From the NCBI RefSeq assembly GCF_021172045.1, contig NZ_CP087164.1, positions 4,154,001 through 4,218,000 on the forward strand: DNA of 64,000 bases, given 5' to 3'. The translations under genes and the position numbers were made by a program. Within the stretch, counting starts at the first letter, position 1. The number at the start of each line of letters is the position of its first letter. This stretch comes from Capillimicrobium parvum. Its GTDB lineage: Bacteria > Actinomycetota > Thermoleophilia > Solirubrobacterales > Solirubrobacteraceae. The notes below the pieces were generated by a model that made no database searches, had not been told where the DNA came from, and saw only the letters and a program-made list of their open reading frames with translations. This document shows, piece by piece, positions 7,301 through 57,435 of the stretch.

Positions 7301-13122
<5,822 letters not shown>

Positions 13123-51204: not shown

Positions 51205-51777
51205 ATGAGCGCTCGTCCCCTCGCCGCTGCCGTCATCGCGCTGGCCCTTGGGGCCGGCGTCGCGGCGTGCGGCGGAACGCAGGTCAGCGAGGACAAGCCG
51301 GCCACGACCCCGCCGATCACGGTCTCCGAGGCGGAGCTCGCCGGCCTGAACGGCACCGAGACGGCCGCCTCAGCCGGCACGACCACGGGCACGGGCACGA
51401 CCTCGACCACGGGCACCACGTCGACGCAGTCGAGCTCCACCGGTTCCACGGGCGCGACCGGCTCGACGTCGAGCGGCACGTCCTCGGGCACCAGCGGCTC
51501 GAGCGGCACCGCGAGCAGCGGCACGTCGGGCGGCACCACCGGCTCGAGCGGCACCACCGGCGGAGGGACCACCGGCGGAGGGACCACCGGCGGAGGGACC
51601 ACCGGCGGCGGCACGACCGGCGGAGGGACCACCGGCGGCGGCACGACCGGCGGCGGCACGAGTGCCGGCGGCACCACGGGCGGCGGGACGACCGGCGGCG
51701 GCGCCGGCACCGGCGGAGGCGGAACCGGCGGCGCCGGCTTCCAGGACTTCTGCGCGCAGAACCCGGGCGCCTGCTAG
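51205..51777 (+). CDS. Lipoprotein with Thr/Ser/Gly low-complexity body
   Basis: 190 aa. Lipobox VAACGG near 20-24, then a Thr/Ser-rich stretch and a (TGGG)n region with GGGTTGGG repeats at about 118-160, typical of an extended, possibly glycosylated wall anchor. The end is GAGFQDFCAQNPGAC, a short cysteine-bearing tail found again twice downstream in other frames. No catalytic domain. Starts 14 bases after the zinc-ribbon gene and is probably co-transcribed. Confidence 0.7.
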   Translation: MSARPLAAAVIALALGAGVAACGGTQVSEDKPATTPPITVSEAELAGLNGTETAASAGTTTGTGTTSTTGTTSTQSSSTGSTGATGSTSSGTSSGTSGSSGTASSGTSGGTTGSSGTTGGGTTGGGTTGGGTTGGGTTGGGTTGGGTTGGGTSAGGTTGGGTTGGGAGTGGGGTGGAGFQDFCAQNPGAC

Positions 51778-51913
51778 CGCCCCTCGGCCCCGCCGGCCTC
51801 CAGAACTTCTGCGCGCAGAACCCGGGCGCCTGCTGGTGCCCCTGAGCGGCGCCGGCTTCCAGAACTTCTGCGCGCTCCAGGACTTCTGCACGCAGAACCC
51901 GGGCGCCTGCTAG
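51731..51913 (+). repeat. Tandem copies of a lipoprotein C-terminal segment
   Basis: Three near-identical blocks (51731-51777, 51791-51833, 51849-51913), each reading FQxFC-x-QNPGAC and a stop when translated. The stop codons fall in three different frames, and the stop of the second copy is changed from TAG to TGG. Also repeated is the flanking TAGCGCCCCTCGGCCC. Confidence 0.8.
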
Positions 51914-51933: not shown

Positions 51934-52620
51934 CTACTGGTCCTCAGCCGGCGTCGTCGGGTTCGTTACGAGTGTCGCGGAGTACGTCAGCCGCGCCGTC
52001 GTGTACTTGCACAGGTACTGCTTGAGGTCCCCGATGGTGGTCTGGGCGGTCTGTGTCTGCGTCGTCGCCTGGGCCTTGCAGGCGGAGTCGCGGCTCGCGC
52101 GCCAGGCCGTGTCGGCGGGCAGGCCCACCGCCAGCGCCGGGGCCCACGTGGGCACCGTCAGCGCGATCACCTCGTCCTTCTTGACCGCCAGCGTCGTCTC
52201 GAGCGGGAACTGGACCGTCTTGCCGAAGAACGGCGTCAGCTTCATCACCGGGCTCTGGGCGACCAGGCGCGCCCGCGCCTTCGTCCCGGTCGTGAGCACC
52301 GCCAGGCCCGCCTGGGCCTCGCCGCCGTAGTTGTCGTTGAAGAACTTGACCTGCTTCTTGCCGGGGAGGCCGAGCTGAACGCTCCAGGCGACGATCCGGC
52401 CATCGGCCGGCACGCGGAACACGCCGTTCGTCCCGCCGACGCTCTGCTGGTAGCCGGTCGTGCGGGTCACCGCGATGCAGTTCGTCGGGCACGACGGCGT
52501 GCCCGTGGCCGCAGCGCCTGTGGGCCCGACCTCCTTGATCTCGGCATTCGCGGCCGGGGCAAGCGCCAGCGCGCCGAGGACGGCCGTCAGGGCGGGGATC
52601 GTGAAATTTGGACGCAGCAT
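51934..52620 (-). CDS. Secreted hypothetical protein
   Basis: 228 aa. Signal peptide 1-26 (LTAVLGALALAPAANA). Mature part is beta-rich with paired cysteines (PSCPTNCIAV near 41-50), then FRVPADGRIVAWSVQLGLPG and FFGKTVQFPLETTLAVKKDE followed by VIALTVPTWAPALAVG: a jelly-roll-like pattern. Its order of elements resembles the broken gene at 19388, suggesting a family of surface proteins in this genome. No family name recognised. No catalytic residues. Confidence 0.6.
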   Translation of the reverse strand: MLRPNFTIPALTAVLGALALAPAANAEIKEVGPTGAAATGTPSCPTNCIAVTRTTGYQQSVGGTNGVFRVPADGRIVAWSVQLGLPGKKQVKFFNDNYGGEAQAGLAVLTTGTKARARLVAQSPVMKLTPFFGKTVQFPLETTLAVKKDEVIALTVPTWAPALAVGLPADTAWRASRDSACKAQATTQTQTAQTTIGDLKQYLCKYTTARLTYSATLVTNPTTPAEDQ

Positions 52621-52678: not shown

Positions 52679-52762
52679 ATGGCAGCGGTCGAGACGGTCG
52701 CCTTGGAACGCCGGTTCAAGGGTGCCCTGAAGGCGGTTGACGGCATGGACCTCGACCGCGAG
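52679..52762 (+). pseudogene. N-terminal relic of a DrrA-type ABC transporter ATPase
   Basis: Reads MAAVETVALERRFKGALKAV followed by DGMDLD, the characteristic first strands of drug-export ABC ATPases (IETxxLxKRFGxxxAVDGxDLxVxxGE). Similarity stops abruptly near 52760, before the Walker A loop, and the frame continues as unrelated low-complexity sequence to a stop near 52958. It is divergent from the gene at 51934, in the usual position for such an operon. See the permease relic at 57268. Confidence 0.6.
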
Positions 52763-52925
52763 CGAGCAGCGCCCGCCCAGCGCGACGGAACCGCCCCGCC
52801 CACGCGCACGCTTTCCCGAACCGTGGGCCCCTGGGTCCTCGCCGGTCATCGTCGCCCCCTGCACGATTCGTTGCAGCCGCCCACCCGCCCGCGAGAAACC
52901 CGCGACAGGAGTCCTACGTATCGCC

Positions 52926-53192
52926 CTAGGCGTGCGCCACGACCTCGCACACGCTGACGTTGTCCACCGTGACCGCCTCGGGGACGTTCGTGCGGACCTG
53001 TTGGGCCATCGCGTTTGCCGCCTCCTCGGACTCGAGGACGACAACCGAGTGGCCCTTGCCCGGCCCGACCTGCATCCAAGAGCCGGAGACGAACCCCGGC
53101 GCTCCCGAGACCGCCGGGACGGTGCGGTCCAGTAGTTCGCGCCTGGCGTCGGAGAAATCGCTGATAGAGACGTCGACGATGACGGCATGCAT
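52926..53192 (-). CDS. Small dimeric alpha/beta-barrel (ABM-like) protein
   Basis: 88 aa. Starts MHAVIVDVSISDFSDARREL and has GFVSGSWMQVGPGKGHSVVV in the centre, then a helix EEAANAMAQQV and a last strand VSVCEVVAHA: the layout of antibiotic biosynthesis monooxygenase/dimeric alpha-beta barrel proteins. Catalytic residues are not defined for this group. GAGGAG precedes the ATG at 53192. Downstream, the segment joins the ATPase relic. Confidence 0.65.
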   Translation of the reverse strand: MHAVIVDVSISDFSDARRELLDRTVPAVSGAPGFVSGSWMQVGPGKGHSVVVLESEEAANAMAQQVRTNVPEAVTVDNVSVCEVVAHA

Positions 53193-54293
53193 CGTTCCGG
53201 CTCCTCGTTTCGTTGGTGGCCGAGGTGATCGTCTCCGACAAGCCTCGTCCGATGCAAGGGGGACCGCGTCGTTCATCCGTGCGCGGCCGGGCGCGGGCCG
53301 CTGTGCCTGCGGCACGGCGGCGGCACCGTCGCGGTAGCGGCGCAGCGCGTCGACCGGCGGTAGCTCGCTCGTGGCGATATCGCCATCGTGCGCGACACCG
53401 GCCGCTGAACGCTCGCCGCCCCGATCTCGCGGGACGGCGAGCGCATTTCGCGCGAGCGCCAACTGCCACCAGGTGCCCGTGGGGCAAAGTGCGCGCTCGA
53501 ACCCCGCGCGGGGTGCGCTCATCTGTAGCGGCGGGATCCGCCGTGCCCATCGCCCGGGGAACCGAATACCCGTCATCCAGCAACAGAAGCGGGCGCCGTC
53601 AGTCCAATGACCCAACGCAACGCGCCCGTCGAGCGTCACGAAGAACGCTCAGTGCCCTTTGCGTTGTTCTATAGAGATTGATAGGCACCTGAATAGATGA
53701 GCGCGCCCGACCTGCTGAGCATCTCGAGCGTCTCGTCTGCGCTGTGATGGACCAGGAGCGGACGTGCGATGTTCACTATTAAAGGAAATCTTCCGCGCTT
53801 CTCGCCGGATCTCGAACCGCTGACGGTTTCATTTCTAGCGCGAGTCACCCGACAGTTGCGCCGTCGATACTCCGTGGTGTCGTTTCGCGATCTCAGCAGA
53901 GGAGCGCCTTGACATCGGCTTTTCGCAGTGGGACGCTCGCTCCTGGACGAAGGGCCACAAGTGCTTCCTGTATTGCAGCGTCGTGACGCCTGCAGGGGGT
54001 TGAGGCCATCGCGCGTCGGTTCTGACGCCAACGCTCGTGCGCCCCCCGTGCGCATCACCACTGAGCATGAGGCGGAGTGAAGACACTCCGGCTCCACCCC
54101 GGCACCGATTGAGCGAGCGCCGGGAATGAGCCGCAATCCTGAAAGTTAACGCGTCACCATTGTGCCGTTACTCCAACGGGGGATGTGACGCGCGAGCTGA
54201 AAAAGCCTATCCAGGAAAGCACCGACTCCGGGCTCGGGGATTCACTGTGCGCTTCGCGCGTGCGCCTTCGAGCCAGAGAGGAGACAATCGGCA
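53193..54293. other. Gene-poor, lower-GC stretch of 1.1 kb
   Basis: No convincing gene. Open frames on both strands are short, overlap one another and have arginine-rich or biased translations. The part from 53640 to 54290 is clearly less GC-rich than the rest of the window and has ordinary stop codon density. One fragment ending at 53669 reads SADETLEMLSRSGALIYSGA and looks protein-like, perhaps the end of a decayed gene. Position suggests foreign, degenerating DNA. Confidence 0.5.
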
Positions 54294-54845
54294 ATGAGCA
54301 GACATCGACGGCTTTTGGCTCTTGGGACGGTCCTTGTGGCGGCAATCGCGTTCCCCGCGGCGGCTTCGGCGGCTGTCGCGCCGGGAACATATTTCCCAAC
54401 GGCCGATAGCTTCAACTCCGCAAACGCTCCGGGCAGCTCGCACCTGACATCGGGCACGCCGTCGTGCACGGTCACGACAACGCTCGACGTCAACTGCTCG
54501 GCGTATGTGCTCGGGGGCGTCGGCCACACGAATGCGACCGTGAGCCTCGCGGCCAACTACACGGCGATCGTTGACTGCTTCAACCCCGGAACGAACCGGA
54601 ACAACCCGATCGAGTCGCACACCACGTCGTTCGCGGCCACCAGTACGGCCACCGTGCCCTCGACCAGGAACGGACAGCTGTCTGTCCCGGCGCAGTCGGT
54701 GAGCGCTGGGCAAGTGGGGCAGGTGTGCCCGAATCCCAACTGGACGCCGGTCATCCGTCAGGGATCTCTCACGCTGGTGAGCTTCACGTACACGCTCACG
54801 TTCGCAGGGTTCACGTCACCGTACATCACGATCACCGCCAGCTAG
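54294..54845 (+). CDS. Secreted hypothetical protein, 183 aa
   Basis: Signal peptide at 1-26 (LLALGTVLVAAIAFPAAASA). Mature chain is Ser/Thr/Asn-rich with several cysteines (TPSCTVTTTLDVNCSAYVLG near 56-75, then VDCFNP and VCPNPNW), all consistent with a small disulphide-stabilised beta protein. AGAGAGGAGA precedes the ATG. Codon use is less GC3-biased than neighbours (codons such as GCG mixed with TTT, CTT), fitting its place in the foreign-looking segment. A hairpin terminator follows. Confidence 0.6.
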   Translation: MSRHRRLLALGTVLVAAIAFPAAASAAVAPGTYFPTADSFNSANAPGSSHLTSGTPSCTVTTTLDVNCSAYVLGGVGHTNATVSLAANYTAIVDCFNPGTNRNNPIESHTTSFAATSTATVPSTRNGQLSVPAQSVSAGQVGQVCPNPNWTPVIRQGSLTLVSFTYTLTFAGFTSPYITITAS

Positions 54846-54887
54846 CGGCGAGTGATGCGGTCGTGAATCGCGAGAGGTAGGCACGAG

Positions 54888-54922
54888 CGGAAGGGCCGGG
54901 CCATCGGGCACCGGCCCTTCCG
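54888..54922 (+). terminator. Hairpin terminator after the secreted-protein gene
   Basis: Perfect 12-bp stem CGGAAGGGCCGG / CCGGCCCTTCCG with an 11-base loop and a short TCCTTG tail, 43 bases after the stop. Confidence 0.7.
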
Positions 54923-55104
54923 TCCTTGTGCATGCCGATGTTGGCAACTCATTGCCGGGCCAGATCTCGTGGCGCCGCCGGTCGGGACAGAAGGTTCTCC
55001 GGACCTTCTCGGTAGTTCGGAACGAGACGGTGACCGGTTCGGTGGCCTCTGCCGCCGCCGCCGTGTGAACCGCCGTGGCAACGCATGGAAGGCAGCGGCC
55101 GCGT

Positions 55105-57198
55105 TCAGTCGGGCTGTCCGGGCTGCCGCGGTCCGATCCGGTAGGGCCGCATCATCTCGTTGTCCTCGTGCTCGACGATGTGGCAGTGCCAGACGAACTG
55201 GCCGGCTGTGTCGAACTGGGCTCTGACTCGGGTGACTTGGCCTGGGTAGGCGATAACGGTGTCCTTGAAGCCGGTCTCCCCCGGTTCGGGCAGCAACGGG
55301 TCGCCGTCGAGCTGGATCGGCTGGACGACCTGTTCTTGACTCTCGTCGAGAAGGAGGCGCTGCCGGTTGACGACCTCGAAGGTGATCTCGTGAATGTGCA
55401 TGGGGTGGGCGTCGGCCGTCGTGTTGTAGATCTCCCAGACCTCGGTGTCACCGACGCCGGGGTTCTCCGTCACCGGATCCGTCCACTCGCGCTCCGTCCA
55501 CACCCCGTCGGTCACCGTGCCCAGGAGCGCCTCGACCGGCCCCTCGATCGCTTCGCCTTGTTCGTCAAGACCCTCGTCGGCCTTCTCGATCAGCGCCACC
55601 TGCCGCGTGTGCGTCTGGGCGGGCAGCGGCGTGATCGCGGGCAGCTGGAGGAACCGCGGCGGGGTCGAGTCGTCGATCTCGACCGCGGGCACGACGCGGA
55701 ACTGCATGATCTGCCCCGTCGTGTCGGCGTCGGCGTGATCGAAGTCCTCATCGGGTTCTCCGCCCCCGAACGGCTCGTCGGGCCCGATGTTGGCGAGTAT
55801 GTGGTTCCCGAGCGGCACATTCGTGAAGTCGGCGATCACGTCGGCCCGCTCGGCGGGTCCCATCAGCAGCCGGTTCTCGTGGTTGGCGGTGAGGTTCACC
55901 GGGGCGGCGAGGAAGCCGCCCTCGTTGCCGATCTGCCACACCTCGACGTCGGGGATCCGGTTGAAGTCGAGCATGAGGAAACGGGACTGGCAGCCGTTGA
56001 GGAACCGCAGCCGGTAGCGGCGCTGCTCAACGGTCTGAAACGGCCACGTGTTGCCGTTGACCATGATCGTGTTCCCGAAGAACTCGGGATTCCAGATCGG
56101 CGAGAACTCCCCGTCCGGGATGTAGTCGTGCACGATCCCATCGAAGAACGCCCGGCTGTCCGGATAGAACAGCGACCCGTCCGTGTTGAAGGACCGATCC
56201 TGGATCGCGATCGCGATCTCGCGGTAGCGCTTGTTGGACGGAAACCTGTCGTTCTCGCGCGGCGCCGGGCCGGGCAAGCTCGCCGCGAGCCCGGTCCGCG
56301 AGTCGAGCACGACATCGTCGGGGCCGCCCCGGATGAGGTAGAAGCCAGCCGGGCCCGCGTACACGTTCAGGCGTGTCATGCCGAGCGCGTGGTCGTGGTA
56401 CCAGATCGTCGCCGCCCGGTTGTCGTTCGGGTATTGGAACGTGGCGAACCCAGGTCCCCACTCGACGCCGTAGGCCCGGGCGGCCTGGCCGGCGAAGAAC
56501 TCGTACCACGTCCCTTCCGTGGCGTAGCCAGCCGGAATGTCGGTCGCGGCAGGCAGGTACCACGCTTCCGCGTAGCCGTCGCTGTCGTCATTCACGCCCA
56601 CAGCGCCGTGCACGTGGGTGACCATCGGGACCGGGCCCGTGTACCGACCGGGCGTCTCCGTGAACCTCGGCCGGCTGTCGCGACCGCCGGTCCCGCCGGG
56701 CGGGTTGGCCCAGTGCAGGGTCTGGTCGACCGCGAACAGGTGGGGCAAGTAGCTCCCGTCGGCGCTCACGAGCTCATTGATCCACCTGACCCGGACCGGC
56801 CTGCTCTGGCGGGCCTCGATCGTCAGCGACGGGGCGTGGTGGACGAGCAGCCCGCGGTTGCTGCGCGCCGCCTTCGCACCGTAGCCCCACACCGTCGTCG
56901 CCGGCAGTCCCGCCGGAAGGATCTGCTGCTCGAACTGCCGCATCGAGATCTCGTAGTAGTCAACCGGCTTGTCGCCCCGCTGCCTGATCGTGGCGGCCCT
57001 GGGCATCACCGGCGGGATCAGCATCGGCGTCTGGAACTTCGCGATCGTGGTCGGATCGAGCGTGCCGCCCGCGACCAAAGCCAACGCCTCCGATGCGCGG
57101 CGGCCCGGAAGCCGCCCGAACAGGTAGTAGCCGGCGCTTGCTCCCCCGACCCAGGCGACGAACGTACGCCGGGAAAACCGAAGTGACGTCTCCACCAT
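55105..57198 (-). CDS. Multicopper oxidase (CotA/bilirubin-oxidase-like)
   Basis: 697 aa. Tat-type signal with SRRTF near 9-13. The four copper motifs are present: THVHG near 205, WYHDHALG near 268, HPMHIHEITF near 610 and WHCHIVEHEDNEMM near 675 (type 1 methionine ligand). Length and the HPMHIH pattern suit three-domain CotA/bilirubin oxidase-type enzymes that oxidise phenolics, metals or pigments. GAGGAG precedes the ATG. Lies inside the segment between ABC relics and was probably acquired with it. Confidence 0.93.
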   Translation of the reverse strand: MVETSLRFSRRTFVAWVGGASAGYYLFGRLPGRRASEALALVAGGTLDPTTIAKFQTPMLIPPVMPRAATIRQRGDKPVDYYEISMRQFEQQILPAGLPATTVWGYGAKAARSNRGLLVHHAPSLTIEARQSRPVRVRWINELVSADGSYLPHLFAVDQTLHWANPPGGTGGRDSRPRFTETPGRYTGPVPMVTHVHGAVGVNDDSDGYAEAWYLPAATDIPAGYATEGTWYEFFAGQAARAYGVEWGPGFATFQYPNDNRAATIWYHDHALGMTRLNVYAGPAGFYLIRGGPDDVVLDSRTGLAASLPGPAPRENDRFPSNKRYREIAIAIQDRSFNTDGSLFYPDSRAFFDGIVHDYIPDGEFSPIWNPEFFGNTIMVNGNTWPFQTVEQRRYRLRFLNGCQSRFLMLDFNRIPDVEVWQIGNEGGFLAAPVNLTANHENRLLMGPAERADVIADFTNVPLGNHILANIGPDEPFGGGEPDEDFDHADADTTGQIMQFRVVPAVEIDDSTPPRFLQLPAITPLPAQTHTRQVALIEKADEGLDEQGEAIEGPVEALLGTVTDGVWTEREWTDPVTENPGVGDTEVWEIYNTTADAHPMHIHEITFEVVNRQRLLLDESQEQVVQPIQLDGDPLLPEPGETGFKDTVIAYPGQVTRVRAQFDTAGQFVWHCHIVEHEDNEMMRPYRIGPRQPGQPD

Positions 57199-57267
57199 TG
57201 GGCTCCTCTCTCCAGCGTGCCCACCCTGCGCCTGACCGGATCCTGATCCTACCGGGGTCGGCCGGTT

Positions 57268-57435
57268 ATGGAGAATGGCCGATCCCGCTCATTCCCGGTC
57301 CTCGACGGCGTGCGCCAGGGCTACCTCGGACCGATCACCTGGGCCGAGACATGGCCGGCACTCGCGGCGACCACCGGGATGCTCGCCGTGCTCGGGTCGC
57401 TGGCGGCGTGGGGGATGCGGCGGACCGGGCGCTGA
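57268..57435 (+). pseudogene. C-terminal relic of an ABC-2 (DrrB-type) permease
   Basis: Reads VLDGVRQGYLGPITWAETWP followed by ALAATTGMLAVLGSLAAWGM and RRTGR, which is the last helix and tail typical of ABC-2 drug-export permeases. Residues before SFPVLDG are unrelated, so homology begins near 57290. It is on the same strand as the ATPase relic at 52679, 4.5 kb to the left, and in the order expected for the operon. Its end overlaps antisense with the SGNH hydrolase C-terminus. Confidence 0.6.

Follow-up and report, generated by a model that had tools for sequence, protein, structure and literature searches.

A DrrA-type ABC export operon of Capillimicrobium parvum largely replaced by an acquired segment with a laccase gene

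A DrrA-type ABC export operon of Capillimicrobium parvum has lost its middle, and a segment of 4,541 bases carrying a multicopper oxidase gene stands in its place (positions 52757 to 57297). Positions refer to the window, the whole stretch of 64,000 nt that was analysed (contig NZ_CP087164.1 of assembly GCF_021172045.1, positions 4,154,001 to 4,218,000 of the forward strand). Both ends of the operon persist beside the segment, and the locus is well supported as a clean gene-replacement scar, produced by a kind of event already known. To the whole scenario, in which the middle of the operon was lost in this lineage and horizontally acquired DNA (4.5 kb, including the laccase gene) came to lie there, most likely through end-joining capture, we assign a probability of about three in four. 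The initial annotation had described a rare scar of foreign DNA acquisition at this place. Its proposal that foreign DNA replaced the operon is borne out by relatives in which the same neighbours flank an intact operon and in which the segment was not found; the rarity of such a scar is not established.

Operon remnants and the locus in relatives

A gene on the reverse strand (51934 to 52620) served as left syntenic marker, a role that rests on its homologues and on synteny. It encodes a conserved secreted protein that matched no Pfam or NCBIfam family and of which 57 of 61 genomes, counting the window's own, hold a relative. We compared the loci around this gene from 37 other genomes. The ABC operon begins 59–357 bases from the marker in 11 of these loci, and the distance in the window is 59 bases. 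Two of the 11 come from the same genus (G001, locus L029, and G003, locus L031), while two others could not be read cleanly throughout: L033 reaches a contig end inside the second permease, and the ATPase and second permease of L047 match in two pieces. The remaining 26 loci have no ABC gene of the operon beside the marker. In G002, also of the same genus, an enoyl-CoA hydratase gene directly follows the marker, without the operon. Intact operons between the same neighbours were found in relatives, two of the same genus among them, and no relative was found that carried the segment without the transporter.

Across loci L029 to L066, the content between marker and enoyl-CoA hydratase varies among relatives (ABC operon, MFS/TetR genes, alpha/beta hydrolases), and this stretch has the appearance of a hotspot where genes are locally gained and lost. 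A separate observation concerns positions 51732 to 51913, which hold the 3′-terminal part of a Gly/Thr-rich lipoprotein-like gene and then about 2.4 tandem units of 59 bases; the unit encodes FCAQNPGAC, and the array extends beyond the stop codon.

The intact orthologous operon has three genes, encoding an ATPase, permease 1, and permease 2. Both permeases belong to PF01061, and the orthologous ATPase of G003 matches TIGR01188 (drrA) with 337 bits against a cut-off of 312. The left remnant (52679 to 52756, forward strand) encodes MAAVETVALERRFKGALKAVDGMDLD and aligns without gaps with the beginning of the relatives' ATPase. Its identity to the two intact ATPases from the same genus is 65% over 26 codons, and those two share 73% with each other. 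The right remnant (57298 to 57435, forward strand) encodes VLDGVRQGYLGPITWAETWPALAATTGMLAVLGSLAAWGMRRTGR and a stop, and aligns with the C-terminal end of the second permease in relatives; here the identity to the two same-genus orthologues is 70–72%, and that between the two is 70%. Both fragments therefore align as ABC sequence, in the strand and order first described, with the 26-codon ATPase N-terminus as annotated. The permease fragment had been given as 49 codons, but homology covers the last 45 codons and the stop.

The loss reported for the middle of both transporter genes is likewise real, though the operon had three genes and not two, and permease 1 is wholly missing from the window genome. 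The lost length is 2,286 bases relative to G003 and 2,293 bases relative to G001. The ATPase is reduced to codons 1–26, without Walker motifs. As no Walker motif and only the final stretch of one permease are left, the transporter cannot function. More distant ABC-2 permeases (28–32%) are present elsewhere in the genome.

The remnants show no sign of decay. Differences between the right remnant and the two intact orthologues number 9, 7, 17 and 7, 7, 20 by codon position, and the intact pair differs by 7, 8, 19; the codon-position differences of the left remnant are much like those of the right. This pattern indicates that the remnants may not yet have drifted as free sequence, and therefore that the event would be recent relative to the genus and to the separation of these genomes. 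As the numbers are small, this reading of age is an indication and not a date.

The acquired segment and its genes

The segment has a GC content of 66.8%, against 72.0% before it and 76.3% after it, which agrees with the lower GC described initially. Its limits had been placed at 52763 and 57290; the replaced stretch stands, with its ends moved to 52757 and 57297. GC falls to a minimum of about 60% near 53650–54150, and tetranucleotide usage at 53501–55000 (z of 3.1) is the most unusual of the 64 kb, level with 10001–11500. The latter lies in a second tetranucleotide outlier of the window (10001–12500, z up to 3.1).

The segment holds an intact gene on the reverse strand (55105 to 57198) for a multicopper oxidase of 697 aa, with only mildly unusual composition (GC3 of 0.90). 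The protein matches CotA laccase over residues 59–688 (E of 2.4e-70) as well as Cu-oxidase_2, and carries a Tat-like signal (SRRTF) and the copper-ligand motifs in order: HVHG at 195, HDHA at 268, HPMHIH at 598, and HCHIVEHED at 671. The acquired oxidase thus looks functional by its sequence, and, judging by its family, it likely acts outside the membrane, oxidising phenolics or metals. In 120 related genomes, no protein was found to exceed 59% over the length of the oxidase. The closest protein over nearly the full length, at 74%, comes from a MAG that carries the label Micromonosporaceae, and the next closest come from many phyla.

The initial annotation was right in naming the oxidase and a secreted protein. 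The latter (54294 to 54845, forward strand, 183 aa, family unassigned) was found in none of the 120 relatives, and among 349 genomes of the class it has matches in three other genomes, all from one other family (best 65%). The monooxygenase-like gene that had also been listed is less certain: the small conserved protein in question (52926 to 53192, reverse strand, 88 aa) gave no convincing Pfam or NCBIfam match, and possibly has a fold like that of antibiotic-biosynthesis monooxygenases. It is commoner in the class than the secreted protein, with matches in 27 of the 349 genomes (own included), the best other match, at 67%, lying in a different genus of the same family. Between these two genes lies a low-GC stretch of about 1.1 kb without a recognisable gene (53193 to 54293, GC 64.8%); its longer ORFs had no Pfam match, no Rfam match was obtained, and its frames had no tblastn match in the fetched loci.

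We searched for a donor in the own genome, relatives, the class, the order, plasmids, and phages, with viral contigs added for the secreted protein. Only single genes were matched, each from a different place, and the nearest relatives of the three genes suggest a separate distant source for each. All multicopper oxidase loci examined lacked the other genes of the segment, and the loci of those other genes shared no further part of it. No full-length DNA match to the non-oxidase part (52757 to 55100) was found in 232 genomes of the order. Because the single genes match distantly and without a shared neighbourhood, the segment would be either from an unsampled donor or a composite. Its distribution gives good support to a foreign origin with respect to both genus and order.

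Joints and routes of replacement

When aligned by eye with the orthologues, homology ends abruptly at 52756 and resumes abruptly at 57298. The left joint reads ...GGCATGGACCTCGAC up to the break and CGCGAGCG beyond it, where relatives such as L033, L036, and L046 read ...GGCATCGA(C/T)CT(C/G). At the right joint CATTCCCG is followed by GTCCTCGACGGCGTG, and L029 reads TACGTCCTCGAGGGCGCG. The word CCTCGAC(C/G)GCG occurs at both joints, as CCTCGACCGCG at 52750 to 52760 and as CCTCGACGGCG at 57300 to 57310 on the forward strand, forming a direct repeat with 10 of 11 bases matching. On both strands together, the genome holds 496 copies of CCTCGACNGCG, and CCTCGAC is found 48 times on the forward strand of the window. 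By sampling, 0.6% of random pairs of 20-base stretches share an 11-mer at 10 of 11 bases, and within intact operons 0.1–1.3% of such pairs match equally well. The shared word is a notable coincidence but not a compelling one, the less so because the search for it followed sight of the joints. As both copies sit in ABC-homologous sequence, the joint words tell of the host ends and not of the donor ends. The suggestion that the replacement was microhomology-driven is accordingly weak and not established.

The ancestor had the complete three-gene operon beside the marker gene. About 2.29 kb was lost in the lineage of the window genome, from ATPase codon 27 to the point where 45 codons of the second permease are left. 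A break in the operon was most probably repaired by illegitimate end joining through Ku and a LigD-type ligase, in which short stretches of matching bases may have helped, with the incoming fragment captured in one step or following an earlier deletion. Outside the window, the genome has Ku matches at three places (G000:C1:4391150, 4893380, and 4894159), two of them side by side (4893380–4893925 and 4894159–4894692), together with two NHEJ (LigD-type) ligases that pass the cut-off, and ComEC; their presence makes end-joining capture of incoming DNA plausible. Actinobacteria are among several bacterial clades for which PMC7719229 reports more than one copy of NHEJ components. Double illegitimate recombination has also been described (cited in PMC4437187). 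Taken alone, the end-joining mechanism, which like the number of steps is inferred, is tentative, at slightly under an even chance.

The strongest alternative separates loss from gain. A deletion between two CCTCGA repeats would have left an in-frame ATPase-permease fusion remnant, and a separate insertion of 4.5 kb would have followed at that junction. This history would leave a scar identical to that of one-step replacement, and it fits the presence of CCTCGAC at both joints in the same reading frame, the similar word CCTCGAG at one or both sites in some relatives, and the frequent absence of the operon from relatives' loci. A repeat-mediated deletion leaves a single copy of the word, however, and two are present, so the insertion must also have duplicated it; moreover, no sister genome is known with the deletion alone. 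We regard such a two-step history as a real possibility, if a doubtful one.

It is improbable that the segment is a mobile element or its remains, such as a transposon or integrated circle, with the 11-base direct repeat serving as its target duplication or as an attachment core. The repeat does flank the segment, but the word is frequent in the genome and belongs to the host genes. Scanning of the longer ORFs of the segment against Pfam and NCBIfam, a search for mobile-element genes that the initial annotation had proposed, returned no transposase, integrase, or relaxase. No terminal inverted repeats were found at the segment ends, no tRNA gene near the segment, and no Rfam match in it. A second copy was not found in the own genome, the plasmid matches listed are confined to the laccase part, and no phage match to the non-oxidase part was found. 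A bare insertion, furthermore, would not take away 2.29 kb. A non-autonomous mobile unit without its own recombinase, inserting at CCTCGACNGCG-like words and duplicating them, appears highly improbable.

An assembly artefact joining unrelated DNA is hardly credible: the estimated contamination of the genome is 4.45%, but the assembly is a single 5.95-Mb contig, the laccase frame is intact, and the two joints fall within a single ancestral operon, with order and strand correct. The fragments are short, yet the chance that they are not ABC remnants is practically negligible given their exact position, strand, and order and their identity to the operon termini at the same locus in same-genus genomes, and chance resemblance is ruled out by synteny with the relatives' operon.

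Relation to known systems

The scar found here is a gene replacement whose two joints, two remnants, and ancestral state are all readable, in an actinobacterial host with Ku and LigD-type ligases. It is a useful case for the question of how genomes take in foreign DNA in the absence of mobile-element genes.

NHEJ-mediated capture of heterologous DNA was reportedly the subject of work by Dupuy et al. in 2019 (cited in PMC7719229 and PMC8627663). The window genome resembles such a system in having Ku and LigD-type ligases able to join such ends, and differs in that the event is read from genome sequence alone, the pattern of end trimming being unreadable without the donor. Hulter and Wackernagel (2008, cited in PMC4437187) are said to have described double illegitimate recombination in natural transformation. 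Recipient DNA can reportedly be replaced in such events. In that system, as here, non-homologous foreign DNA is joined at two illegitimate joints, whereas the present case is known only from its end product. The oxidase resembles the CotA-type bacterial laccases (1GSK) along most of its length and in all copper-ligand motifs. It differs from CotA in its 697 aa, its Tat-like signal, and its insertions, with no sign of a spore-coat role here. Finally, the intact orthologues of relatives carry the architecture of DrrA/DrrB-type ABC exporter operons (TIGR01188, PF01061), whereas in the window genome just the first 26 and the last 45 codons of such an operon survive.
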